From Gallaecimonas kandeliae (GTDB lineage Bacteria > Pseudomonadota > Gammaproteobacteria > Enterobacterales > Gallaecimonadaceae), in assembly GCF_030450055.1 (NCBI RefSeq), contig NZ_CP118480.1, forward strand, positions 1,887,415 through 1,951,414: DNA of 64,000 bases, given 5' to 3'. The stretch's first letter is position 1; each line of letters begins with the position of its first letter. A program made the position numbers and the translations under genes. The notes under the pieces were generated by a model, which was not told the origin of the DNA, did no database searches, and was given only the letters and a program-made list of their open reading frames with translations. Below are positions 31,002 to 34,137 of the stretch, one piece after another.

Positions 31002-31030
31002 AAAAGCCGCCCTCGGGCGGCTTTGCTTTT
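31002..31030. terminator. Terminator between bioA and the lipoprotein gene
   Basis: AAGCCGCCC and GGGCGGCTT surround a 2-nt loop, with TTTGCTTTT to the right and an A-run (T on the minus strand) to the left. It can end both bioA and the convergent borosin-operon transcript. Confidence 0.85.
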
Positions 31031-31280
31031 AGAAGCCTTCGCGGCTGTAGACAGCGACAGTGTCCCCCAGGAACTGGACACTGATCACCTTGCTGCCGCT
31101 CTTCCATTGGCAGGATTGGGCCTTGAGTACGGCGTCGCCGCAGCTGTCCGCCTTACCGAGGATGCTTTCCACCTCGCTCCTTTTCATACCGACCTTGAGC
31201 TTGTCGTAATTTTCCACTGTGATCTTGGAGCAAGCCGCCAGGGTGGCGACCAATGCCAGGGGGAGCAACCAACGTTTCAT
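31029..31280 (-). CDS. Small DUF3862-type lipoprotein
   Basis: This 83-aa protein starts MKRWLLPLALVATLAAC, a lipoprotein signal with lipobox LAAC and Ser at +2. The mature part (ITVENYDKLKVGMKRSEVES and onward) resembles DUF3862, a small BamE/SmpA-like fold. Cysteines in DSCGDAV and AQSCQWK may form a disulfide. GGAGAT lies before the ATG at 31280, which I prefer to a longer frame. It starts 40 nt after the methyltransferase stop on the same strand and may be the last gene of that transcript. A functional link to the borosin genes is not shown. Confidence 0.75.
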   Translation of the reverse strand: MKRWLLPLALVATLAACSKITVENYDKLKVGMKRSEVESILGKADSCGDAVLKAQSCQWKSGSKVISVQFLGDTVAVYSREGF

Positions 31281-31320
31281 GCCATATCTCCTTGATAAAA
31301 CATGCACAAGCATAACCGCC

Positions 31321-32088
31321 TTACTGCAGGGGCTCCAGCCGCTGCAGCCAGAATTCGTCCCGCTCTAAAGGCGCTGTTAAGGGAGGCACGACCAGGGTTG
31401 TGATCTGGGCCGTCTGGGCCCTTGGTAGATCCTTCAGCGCCAGGCGCTGTGCCCGAAAGTCCTGTATCGGCAGTTGGGCCGCCTCGTAGAGGATCACTTC
31501 ATGGTCCGGCGGATAGTACTGGCTGAGCTTTTCCACCAGCAGGGCCAGCTTGGCTTCCTGGGTGTCGAAGCGCTTGAGGCTCAGATCGCCGCAGATCCCC
31601 ACCTGCCAAAGCAGCAGCAGGGCGGAAGGGTCTATCTGGCGCTTGAAGACGAGGAACTGGGTGGCCTCCATGCTGGCCACGCCGCGCTTGCCGGGATCCA
31701 ACCCCAGATCGGCATAGAGGCAGGCCTCGGCGGAGATGCCGGGATCCATACGGGCCTCAAGCCCCAGCGCTCGGGTGGCCTGGATGGCCATATGGGGCAC
31801 GTCGGCGAAGATCCCCGGATGGCCATAGAAGACACAGCAGACCTTAAAGCCCTGCCTCACTTCCGCCATGATGAGGTCACGCATGTCCTGGTAGGCCAGC
31901 TTGCGGGACTTGTCCCGCCCGTAACAAGGATGCAGGGAAACCAGATCGGGCCTTACCGTCTTCAACCACTCCAGCGCCACCCCGTCAACCAGCACCAATA
32001 CCTTGTCGGCATTCTGTATTTCAGACAGGGCGCGCTCGCTGACATGCTGCCCCAGGGTGATCCCCAGGCCCACTATTACCAGGCTCAT
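31321..32088 (-). CDS. Borosin-type peptide backbone alpha-N-methyltransferase (SonM-like)
   Basis: The 255-aa protein has the tetrapyrrole (corrin/porphyrin) methylase fold: VGLGITLGQ at the N terminus, YGHPGIF at 88-94 and DPGISAEACLYADLGLDPG at 115-133. It is not like CobA or CysG. The full-length pattern follows SonM, the split borosin methyltransferase of Shewanella oneidensis, which methylates backbone amides of a separate precursor with SAM. Residues matching the borosin catalytic set are visible: Tyr56, Arg62-x3-Tyr66 and Tyr88. LLLWQVGICGD and DHEVILYEAAQLPIQ are shared with SonM. The start overlaps the preceding gene as ATGA. The precursor gene lies two genes upstream. Confidence 0.85.
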   Translation of the reverse strand: MSLVIVGLGITLGQHVSERALSEIQNADKVLVLVDGVALEWLKTVRPDLVSLHPCYGRDKSRKLAYQDMRDLIMAEVRQGFKVCCVFYGHPGIFADVPHMAIQATRALGLEARMDPGISAEACLYADLGLDPGKRGVASMEATQFLVFKRQIDPSALLLLWQVGICGDLSLKRFDTQEAKLALLVEKLSQYYPPDHEVILYEAAQLPIQDFRAQRLALKDLPRAQTAQITTLVVPPLTAPLERDEFWLQRLEPLQ

Positions 32089-33845
32089 GACGTCTCCACG
32101 GATTTTTCCAGAATCTCAACGCTGCTGTAGCCCTTGTCCTGGGCTTTGACCAGCGCCTGGGCCACCTTATGCAACCCCTCTTCCAGGTTATGGCAGCCCG
32201 GCAGCGCCTCGACGATACCGAAACTGACCGACAGCAACAGGTCCAGGTGGGCATCATCCCCGGCCGGCCCCCGGCCCTGGCAGTTGCGCACCAGCTCGCG
32301 GGCCCCGGCCTTGTCCTTGCCCGGCAGTACCAGCAGGAACTCGGCACCGCTGGTGCGCCCCACCTGATCCCTCTTGCCCAGTTGGGCCTTGAGGCAGGAG
32401 GCAAAGCGTTTCAGGGCCTTGTCCCCTGTCTCCAGGCCGTATTGGCGGTTGAGCAGGTGGAACTCGTCGACGTCGGCCACCACCAGGGTCAGCGGCTCGT
32501 CCTTGGCCTTGGCCTCGTCAAAGAGCAACTTGGCCCGCTCCAGCAAGGCCGAACGGGTCAAGACGCCGGTCAGGTTATCGGTCTGGGACAGCTTGACCAG
32601 GCCCCTTTGCTGCCTGTTGTTGCGGATAAGGACGGCGGCCAGCATCAGGCAGAGGCCTCCAGCCCCCAACAGCCCCTGGATCACCAGCCAGAGCCGCTGC
32701 CGGCCATTGTTGTCCTTGAGGGTCAGCAGCTTGTTTTCCTTCTCTAGGAGGGCGATTTTCTGGCGCTGGCTGTCGACATTGAGCTTGGCCTGCAGGTAGG
32801 CCATGCGGCTGCCCTTGGCTTCTTCCAAGCCGGCCTTGGCCGCCTTGAGGTAATTGTCCTGGTACTTGATCATGGCGTCGTAGTCGCCGCCTTGGCGAGC
32901 CAGCTTGGCCAGCAAGTGATAGAGCAGTTGTTGTTCCTGCCACTGGCGGTCCCCCCCCGCCAACAGGGCCAGGGCCCGCTTGGCCCAGTTATTGGCCATG
33001 CTCTCGTCGCCCATGGCATCGAAGCTCTCGGCGATGCCGATGGCGGCGCCCAGCTGACCGTCCTTGTAGCCGGCATCGTCATAACCGTTCTGGGCCGACA
33101 TGAAGGCGGCCAGGGCGGCCTTGGTATCTTTCTTTTCCAGGTAATAACGGCCCATGAAATCCTGGGCCTCGCTGACCATCACGGGCCCACCGACTCCCTG
33201 ACAGAGGCTGAGTTGCTTCTGCTTTTCCCTAAAGGCCGCTTCCATGTCGCCCTTGATGGCGTAGACGGCGGCCAGGGCATTCTGGGCCACACATTGCCAG
33301 TAGGGCGCCGCATCCTTGGCCAGGGCGATGTCCTGTTTGGCGTGGCTGAGGGCGGCGTCATAGTCCCCGACCCTGCTGTACATGCGGGAAATGATGAGCT
33401 GGTATTCCAGCTTGGGCTGGAGCTCGGTGAGTTGGGGATAGAGGTCGGTGGCCGCCAACAGGTACTGGACACTCTGGCCGAAGTCGTCCTGGATCTCCGC
33501 CATCTGCGCCAGCAGGTAGTAGGCGCGCATCTTCTTGTTGGCATCCAGGCCGGGATCTCGCAACAGGGATTCCAGGCTCTCCCTGGCCTCCTGGTACTGT
33601 CCCTTGAGGGCCAGCTGATGGGCCACCAGCAGCTGGTAGCGCCGGCTTTCATCCTGGTTGAACTGGGCCTGCTCATTGGCAAGCTCGGCCAGCAGCGCCT
33701 GGGCCTTGGTGGGATCTTTTAAACGCAGTTGCTCAGCCTGGCTGAGCTGGGCATCGATGCCTGAAACTGGCGCCTGATCCGCCAGGCAAAAGTGGGGCAA
33801 GAGCCCCACCAATGCCAGACAGCAGAACCGGCGCCAGAACGGCAA
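32085..33845 (-). CDS. Periplasmic TPR sensor with degenerate GGDEF domain
   Basis: This 586-aa protein has a signal-like N terminus (residues 1-22), a long helical TPR-like periplasmic part (about 25-350) and a coiled coil (350-383). One transmembrane helix (about 385-407) and a C-terminal GGDEF domain follow. The domain keeps DNLTGVLTRSAL and VVADVDEFHLLNRQYG, but the signature is SGAEF (499-503) instead of GGDEF. The first glycine and the catalytic acid are lost, so diguanylate cyclase activity is unlikely. It may bind nucleotide or act as a signal receiver. It begins 4 nt after the precursor gene and overlaps the methyltransferase gene by 4 nt. Why a sensor is coupled to this pathway is unknown. 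Confidence 0.85.
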   Translation of the reverse strand: MPFWRRFCCLALVGLLPHFCLADQAPVSGIDAQLSQAEQLRLKDPTKAQALLAELANEQAQFNQDESRRYQLLVAHQLALKGQYQEARESLESLLRDPGLDANKKMRAYYLLAQMAEIQDDFGQSVQYLLAATDLYPQLTELQPKLEYQLIISRMYSRVGDYDAALSHAKQDIALAKDAAPYWQCVAQNALAAVYAIKGDMEAAFREKQKQLSLCQGVGGPVMVSEAQDFMGRYYLEKKDTKAALAAFMSAQNGYDDAGYKDGQLGAAIGIAESFDAMGDESMANNWAKRALALLAGGDRQWQEQQLLYHLLAKLARQGGDYDAMIKYQDNYLKAAKAGLEEAKGSRMAYLQAKLNVDSQRQKIALLEKENKLLTLKDNNGRQRLWLVIQGLLGAGGLCLMLAAVLIRNNRQQRGLVKLSQTDNLTGVLTRSALLERAKLLFDEAKAKDEPLTLVVADVDEFHLLNRQYGLETGDKALKRFASCLKAQLGKRDQVGRTSGAEFLLVLPGKDKAGARELVRNCQGRGPAGDDAHLDLLLSVSFGIVEALPGCHNLEEGLHKVAQALVKAQDKGYSSVEILEKSVETS

Positions 33846-33849
33846 GATG

Positions 33850-34062
33850 TTATTCCTCGTACGTAACGATGATGGAATCGATCATGTTGACGTTGTCCGA
33901 GCCCGCCAACAGCTTGACCTGTTCCGTATCGCCGGCCAGGAGTGCATCTTTTTCCTCGTCGGACAGGCCCGTCTTGGCCAATACGCCTTTGGGATCCCGT
34001 TTGTAGGCTTCGGCCAAGGCGGCATCGCTTCCCAGTTGCTTCAAAAAGTCCAGCAAGGTCAT
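33850..34062 (-). CDS. Split borosin precursor peptide (SonA-like RiPP)
   Basis: The 70-aa peptide has a helical leader: TLLDFLKQLGSDAALAEAYK, then DPKGVLAKTGLSDEEKDALLAGD. This resembles the LigA/Nif11-like borosin-binding domain of SonA from Shewanella. The C-terminal tail NMIDSIIVTYEE corresponds to the SonA core region. Residues 64-67 (IIVT) align with the methylated stretch of SonA, so Ile65 and Thr67 or their neighbours are the expected N-methylation sites. AGGAG lies about 9 nt before the ATG. It is the first gene of the operon, 4 nt before the sensor gene, and no protease or exporter is obvious nearby. Confidence 0.8.
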   Translation of the reverse strand: MTLLDFLKQLGSDAALAEAYKRDPKGVLAKTGLSDEEKDALLAGDTEQVKLLAGSDNVNMIDSIIVTYEE

Positions 34063-34109: not shown

Positions 34110-34137
34110 AATGTAACCCATTTTGCCGCGGTGTAAA
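34110..34137 (-). promoter_or_regulatory. Putative promoter of the borosin operon
   Basis: On the minus strand TTTACA (34132-34137), a 16-bp spacer and TACATT (34110-34115) predict a start near 34103, about 40 nt before the precursor ATG. It is divergent from the asnS promoter. Confidence 0.55.

Follow-up and report, generated by a model that had tools for sequence, protein, structure and literature searches.

Why should the gene for a membrane protein lie between the gene for a peptide precursor and that for its methyltransferase? The question is raised by three open reading frames (ORFs) on the minus strand of a 64,000-nucleotide stretch of Gallaecimonas kandeliae DNA (contig NZ_CP118480.1, positions 1,887,415 to 1,951,414), which as a whole is referred to as the window. 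In the order of transcription they encode a split-borosin precursor of 70 amino acids (33850..34062), a third component of 586 amino acids with tetratricopeptide repeats (TPR), one clear transmembrane segment and a degenerate GGDEF domain (32085..33845, TTG start), and a borosin alpha-N-methyltransferase of the SonM family with 255 amino acids (31321..32088). These places and sizes, which are those of the ORF listing of the window, agree with the initial annotation, in which the middle gene was regarded as an inserted sensor gene that sets the operon apart from a simple pair. Comparative genomics shows, however, that the TPR protein is a dedicated partner of such enzymes and not a chance neighbor. 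As judged from its sequence, the operon is a type IV split borosin of the SonMA clade together with its usual third component, and a gene that accompanies the enzyme and the peptide even where loci are rearranged, duplicated or fused offers a concrete candidate for the target of the peptide.

The Enzyme and Its Precursor

Among the sequences of the PDB the best match of the enzyme is SonM (phmmer, E = 5.3e-67), followed by dbOphM/OphMA (2e-44 to 6e-39) and MroMA (1e-37). Its residues Tyr56, Arg62, Tyr66 and Tyr88, which had already been singled out in the initial annotation, align with Y58, R67, Y71 and Y93 of SonM, described in PMC8429565 as active-site residues probed by mutation, and none of the four varies in the 18 relatives aligned. 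It should be noted that the enzyme also matches Pfam TP_methylase and obtains NCBIfam scores for YabN (38.7 of 525 bits) and CobM (20.6 of 259.65 bits), as would be expected if it were a tetrapyrrole-type methylase. These scores are, however, far under the cut-offs, none of the 26 PDB sequences found at E ≤ 0.1 is a corrin or porphyrin methylase, and the match to SonM, the conserved catalytic residues and the SonA-like peptide encoded in the same operon all speak against this identity, which was rejected and to which we assign practically no probability.

The best PDB match of the 70-amino-acid peptide is SonA (phmmer, E = 2.7e-11 to 8.2e-11). By its sequence the peptide has a SonA-like helical leader (about residues 3–58), and the alignment to SonA, which covers at most residues 3–62, is that of a helical borosin-binding domain. 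A hydrophobic core probably follows at the C-terminus (about residues 60–67). A LigA dioxygenase subunit was considered for this peptide and rejected, the Pfam LigA score being 22.6 bits at a cut-off of 25.3 bits, and the SonA chains share that label. In type IV split borosins the methyltransferase and the precursor come from separate genes (PMC8429565, section 6); here they are two ORFs of one operon, homologous to SonM and SonA, and the genome contains one copy of the enzyme and one clear precursor. There is thus hardly any doubt that the pair represents a split borosin, as had been proposed, and the comparison with SonM and SonA that had been suggested along with the proposal returns these two as the best solved relatives.

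The TPR Gene as Constant Neighbor of SonM-Type Enzymes

A search with SonM at E ≤ 1e-20 yielded 142 matches in 94 of 394 genomes of the order to which the window belongs. The resulting order set comprises 137 loci, including the window, with 142 enzyme copies. A second, named set comprises 80 loci with 82 copies; it favors near relatives because these are the best 80 of 550 confirmed stretches. Since five loci are common to both sets, their counts are not summed, and pooled counts (189 GGDEF ORFs, 249 TPR domains) include repeats from the shared loci. Gene calls are stop-to-stop ORFs.

A TPR-family gene on the same strand is found within 3.5 kb of 136 of the 142 enzyme copies in the order set and of 78 of the 82 copies in the named set. 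The misses in the order set are the second copy in L185, L216 (where a GGDEF fragment follows), L225 (where a TPR gene is present, divergent), L239, L273 (contig end) and L274 (distant enzyme); in the named set L051, L053 and L074 are contig ends and only L124 is a real miss. The reverse also holds. When 99 genomes were searched with a profile of 16 TPR regions, all 25 matches of at least 200 bits and 37 of the 41 of at least 150 bits were within 6 kb of a borosin enzyme, and of the weaker matches 3 of 9 at 120–150 bits and 2 of 12 at 89–120 bits; 37 of the 39 enzymes in these genomes have a profile match nearby. Of the 17 matches above 300 bits 16 are circular, their genomes having served to construct the profile; at 200–300 bits 7 of 8 are from genomes outside it.

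Loci whose enzyme is 98–99% identical to SonM (L155, L156) have the arrangement enzyme, precursor(s), TPR/GGDEF gene, so SonMA-type loci are not simple pairs either. The notion of a simple pair with an insertion is contradicted by these frequencies, and with it the view that a sensor gene distinguishes the operon of the window. The association is nevertheless a trait of the SonMA clade and not of borosins at large: among eight loci from wider draws in the class and phylum, a TPR gene accompanies three model-close enzymes (L279–L281), and no TPR-family gene was found at the five distant enzymes L275–L278 and L282, for which reason a link with all borosin enzymes was discarded. In L282 (2943-6473(-)), which is from another class of the phylum, the distant borosin-like enzyme domain is part of an ORF of 1177 amino acids.

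Could the three genes be neighbors by chance or merely via a shared promoter? One of the five members of the genus has no enzyme, which might be taken in favor of this. The same member, however, also has no strong TPR match (best 118.6 bits), and co-location at the frequencies given, together with 18 fusions of the TPR and enzyme genes, refutes chance as a general account and leaves it very improbable for the window. That the TPR protein is a functional partner of the enzyme/peptide pair is, in contrast, very likely.

Architecture of the TPR Protein

In Pfam the protein matches GGDEF (E = 2.3e-22) and TPR_12 (E = 6.3e-11), and a TPR membrane protein within the operon, as initially annotated, is borne out by the ORF positions and these matches. 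Signal peptides and transmembrane segments were assessed by eye and by hydropathy scan. The N-terminus looks signal-like by eye and is followed by a TPR solenoid of residues 24–382 (32700..33776, like all features here on the minus strand; AlphaFold2 pLDDT 94.5, pTM 0.91), a transmembrane segment of about residues 384–402 (32640..32696) and the degenerate GGDEF domain of residues 421–572 (32130..32585, from the Pfam span and the motif table). Among the 249 TPR domains with more than 280 residues aligned, the two cysteines that correspond to Cys185 and Cys215 (codons 33201..33293) are both present in 223, both absent in 26 and never present singly, and 31 of 33 rows from ORFs shorter than 400 amino acids keep the pair. 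Cysteines that are kept or lost together suggest a disulfide, and a disulfide suggests a periplasmic domain; Cys185 and Cys215 are therefore probably bridged and the solenoid is probably periplasmic.

The GGDEF motif is canonical (GG[DE]EF) in 181 of 189 TPR-GGDEF ORFs. In the genus of the window it is degenerate in all four carriers, which have SGAEF (the window, 32337-32351), CGAEF, GAAEF or GAAEL; the three others are L029, L030 and L031. The first Asp motif is likewise altered in the four. An active diguanylate cyclase has GG[DE]EF and a metal-binding Asp motif with ND, and the protein of the window has SGAEF and DVDEFHLLNR in these places. A working cyclase in the genus was therefore rejected, and a genus-wide loss of the presumed cyclase activity is indicated. 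The earlier label "GGDEF-like" hides this loss of the catalytic motif.

Outputs, Fusions and Gene Order

The C-terminal part of the TPR proteins is not constant. For the 142 enzymes of the order set the output was GGDEF in 92 cases and a kinase in 24, none was called in 20 and no TPR gene was present in 6; HisKA/HATPase, receiver or Hpt domains were recognized by Pfam in L037, L040, L042, L044 and L054. Many of the proteins with no output called stop at the TPR domain; some of these have a transmembrane segment and some do not, and they often occur in tandem. Others are cut by the end of a frame or contig. In L181, L183, L199, L207, L208, L217 and L221 two to four genes of the TPR family stand in tandem next to the enzyme; their products are about 350 amino acids long, have a hydrophobic N-terminus and lack an output domain. 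The TPR domain is the constant part, and the output varies or is absent.

In 18 of the 82 named copies the TPR-GGDEF protein and the enzyme are a single ORF, which Pfam confirms for L047; by eye there are 19, since the nearest-gene rule had assigned the second fused copy in L066 to the class "TPR after enzyme". In a tree of 219 enzyme rows (quick method) the genus of the window falls into a set of 38 rows (SH-aLRT 99) that contains all 18 fused rows, 15 with the TPR gene before the enzyme, 3 without a TPR gene and 2 with the TPR gene after the enzyme. The gene order of the window can therefore be understood as the unfused form of the order in the fusions. It had been contrasted with a simple adjacent pair, and it does differ from the order in SonM-like loci, but within its clade it is common.

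In 111 of 160 cases (order set) and 85 of 93 (named set) the first gene met upstream of the TPR gene is that of the precursor; the remaining cases of the order set have an enzyme gene there (23), a further TPR gene (17) or no gene of these three kinds (9). With the precursor model, no precursor was found near 18 of 142 and 4 of 82 enzymes. Some loci with a single enzyme have both the precursor and the TPR gene in duplicate around it (L075, L081, L100 = L195, L116, L119); L113 and L120 are of this kind with extra precursors, and in L054 and L237 the enzyme lies in the middle. In further multi-copy loci the TPR gene alone or the precursor alone is doubled, or the enzyme as well. In L043 (7137-8775(+)) two tandem borosin enzyme genes are followed by one precursor gene and one TPR-kinase gene.

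Does the TPR Protein Receive the Peptide?

The following sequence of events can be proposed. By homology, the enzyme would bind the leader of the precursor and methylate backbone amides of the hydrophobic core. The core would be released, reach the periplasm and bind to the Rap-like TPR solenoid, which is held by one transmembrane helix, and the TPR protein would pass the signal to a swappable cytoplasmic output, in relatives a GGDEF domain, a kinase or a hybrid kinase. Without the catalytic motif, the output in the genus of the window would not synthesize cyclic di-GMP and would have to work through binding or contact. We give an even chance to the TPR domain binding the peptide, and somewhat less than that to the three genes as a whole being a peptide-receptor signaling module. 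More tentative still is the generalization that in Gram-negative bacteria split borosins of the SonMA clade serve for peptide signaling: a backbone-N-methylated peptide would act as ligand for a Rap-like TPR receptor in the periplasm, whose outputs are interchangeable and which is sometimes fused to the enzyme that makes the ligand. This generalization, if true, would assign a function to the split borosins of bacteria. Should the methylated peptide prove to be bound by the TPR domain, both partners of the signaling pair could be reconstituted for tests in a laboratory Shewanella strain.

Evidence in favor of a receptor comes from the co-location of the TPR gene with the enzyme, the fusions, the precursor lying just upstream, the joint doubling, the constancy of the TPR domain and the cysteine pair, and further from structural matches and a correlation of distances. 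In Foldseek the best match of the TPR model was 8rsv_A, the Rap protein of phage Phi3T with its pheromone (E = 7.1e-8, TM-score 0.60), with LGN and other TPR proteins close behind. In a second aligner RapF (Z = 25.6), Rap, NprR (23.2), MalT and AimR (21.9) were among the matches listed, at Z 20–26.

The correlation was determined in Mantel tests with 159 complete sets (GGDEF output only), of which 149 remained after removal of near-identical ones. With enzyme and GGDEF distances partialled out, precursor and TPR distances were correlated with r = 0.27 (0 of 500 permutations as high), the corresponding partial values being 0.005 (234 of 500) for precursor and GGDEF and 0.034 (74 of 500) for precursor and enzyme. 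When the precursor was divided into leader and core, the partial correlation of the core with the TPR domain was positive in all four groupings (0.22–0.32). Because the permutations ignore shared ancestry, we count this as weak support for a receptor. It bears also on the possibility, near to the view in the initial annotation, that the TPR protein responds to a cue from the envelope or the environment that has nothing to do with the peptide, and adjusts the pathway to it. A signal-like N-terminus, a transmembrane segment and a cytoplasmic output are what such a sensor would have, and the place of the TPR gene in the operon suits it. However, over all sets the precursor diverges more in step with the TPR domain than with the GGDEF domain attached to it, and in several loci with a single enzyme it is doubled jointly with the TPR gene. 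The comparative data accord somewhat better with a peptide receptor than with envelope sensing, and a sensor of this kind appears rather unlikely.

A third possibility, to which we would give a little more weight than to a cue sensor and which is still improbable, is that the TPR protein is a scaffold, a chaperone or an export/maturation factor: the enzyme would be held at the membrane, the peptide would be received in the periplasm and the output would merely add feedback. The fusions of TPR-GGDEF protein and enzyme, the tandem TPR proteins without transmembrane segment or output beside the enzyme, and the fact that no output activity is expected in the genus of the window are in accordance with it. 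It does not readily account for outputs that are mostly typical signaling modules (GGDEF 92 and kinase 24 of 142), with a GGDEF motif that is intact in nearly all cases (181 of 189).

Several points weigh against the proposal of a receptor. A scaffold or export role explains the TPR-only and the fused forms nearly as well, and TPR proteins without transmembrane segment and output suit a binding or scaffold role equally well. The second aligner ranks eukaryotic TPR proteins first, namely APC5 and the degron-binding APPBP2 (Z = 29), and although many of the structural matches bind peptides, TPR folds are common. The enzyme (23 of 160) or a second TPR gene (17 of 160), rather than the precursor, can be next upstream of the TPR gene. 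Partial correlations of the core with the GGDEF domain are positive too (0.12–0.31) and exceed those with the TPR domain in 22 Shewanella-like sets. The five distant enzymes mentioned above lack the TPR gene, and the operon of the window contains no evident gene for an exporter or a protease. For this operon methylation, release, export, peptide binding and signaling are inferred.

Operon Layout and Flanking Genes

The precursor and TPR genes are separated by 4 bp, the TPR and methyltransferase genes overlap in an ATGA, and the start of each of the three ORFs is preceded by a purine-rich stretch, which we read as a ribosome-binding site. From these junctions a single coupled transcript is likely. 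A possible, weakly supported promoter lies 5′ of the precursor gene (34110..34137, minus strand; 9 of 12 consensus positions); three sites of that quality were found in the region where 0.7 were expected. Upstream of the operon is a divergent gene that looks like one for asparaginyl-tRNA synthetase. Directly downstream of the enzyme gene a small lipoprotein-like gene (31029-31313(-)) is found, followed by genes resembling a biotin operon. The lipoprotein-like gene also adjoins the enzyme in the three other carriers of the genus (67–80% identity), and its scores with the BamE and OsmE models are under the cut-off.

Possible Maturation Genes in Related Loci

A gene for a pepsin-like aspartyl protease (PF00026) occurs near 22 of 142 and 5 of 82 enzyme copies, in 24 distinct loci (for example, L033:8541-9863(-) with Pfam Asp E = 1.9e-15, L185, L201, L202, L204, L218 and others). 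It is a candidate for the leader protease and is always accompanied there by a small gene resembling GNAT acetyltransferases. The latter is found near 44 of 142 and 23 of 82 enzyme copies (L034:7049-7528(+), L036:1913-2419(+) and others), often in loci with acidic-tailed precursors, as judged by eye. The operon of the window has neither of the two genes, and a search for PF00026 gave no match in the genome of the window, nor did it in the control genomes. The pepsin-like protease at borosin loci may hint at what bacterial pepsins such as shewasin do; shewasin D, the pepsin homolog of Shewanella denitrificans, is described in PMC4814920 as mainly cytoplasmic and as lacking detailed functional studies.

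Relation to Known Systems

In the library searched, no paper pairs borosin with tetratricopeptide or with Gallaecimonas. The TPR-GGDEF neighbor may already be found in two surveys of split borosins from 2022, by Imani et al. and by Cho et al. Some GGDEF-bearing borosin architecture is in print, to go by the legend to Figure 1 of PMC11395268, which names a "GGDEF-sequence-containing domain." According to PMC8429565, no split borosin pathway had in 2021 been linked to a final natural product. The initial statement that borosins are the only ribosomally synthesized peptides with backbone N-methylation is outdated, since EreM of the proteusin pythonamide, as given in PMC11285071 and PMC9505594, also performs this modification.

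The closest system described is SonM/SonA from Shewanella oneidensis (PMC8429565), which has in common with the window a homologous enzyme and precursor from separate genes and the catalytic residues. SonM-like loci (98–99% identity) also have the TPR-GGDEF gene, but in the order enzyme, precursor, TPR protein instead of precursor, TPR protein, enzyme, and with respect to them the GGDEF motif of the window is degenerate. The TPR-GGDEF-methyltransferase fusions of Lysobacterales and Rubrivivax (L047, L050, L060 and others) share the strongly supported enzyme clade and have the three domains in the order of the window, directly after the precursor; in the window the enzyme is separate, joined by the ATGA overlap, and the GGDEF domain is degenerate. 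The fused fungal borosins of the OphMA type contain a homologous methyltransferase domain (E = 3e-40 to 6e-39).

With the RRNPP receptors Rap, NprR and AimR the TPR protein has the solenoid fold in common. These receptors are cytoplasmic and carry an N-terminal helical or HTH effector domain, whereas the TPR protein of the window is probably periplasmic and membrane-anchored, with a signal-like N-terminus, a transmembrane segment near residue 384 and a GGDEF-like output at the C-terminus. In view of this layout it is alike in fold and not a member of the family. If the peptide-signal reading is true, receptors of the Rap/NprR/AimR type gain a transmembrane counterpart.

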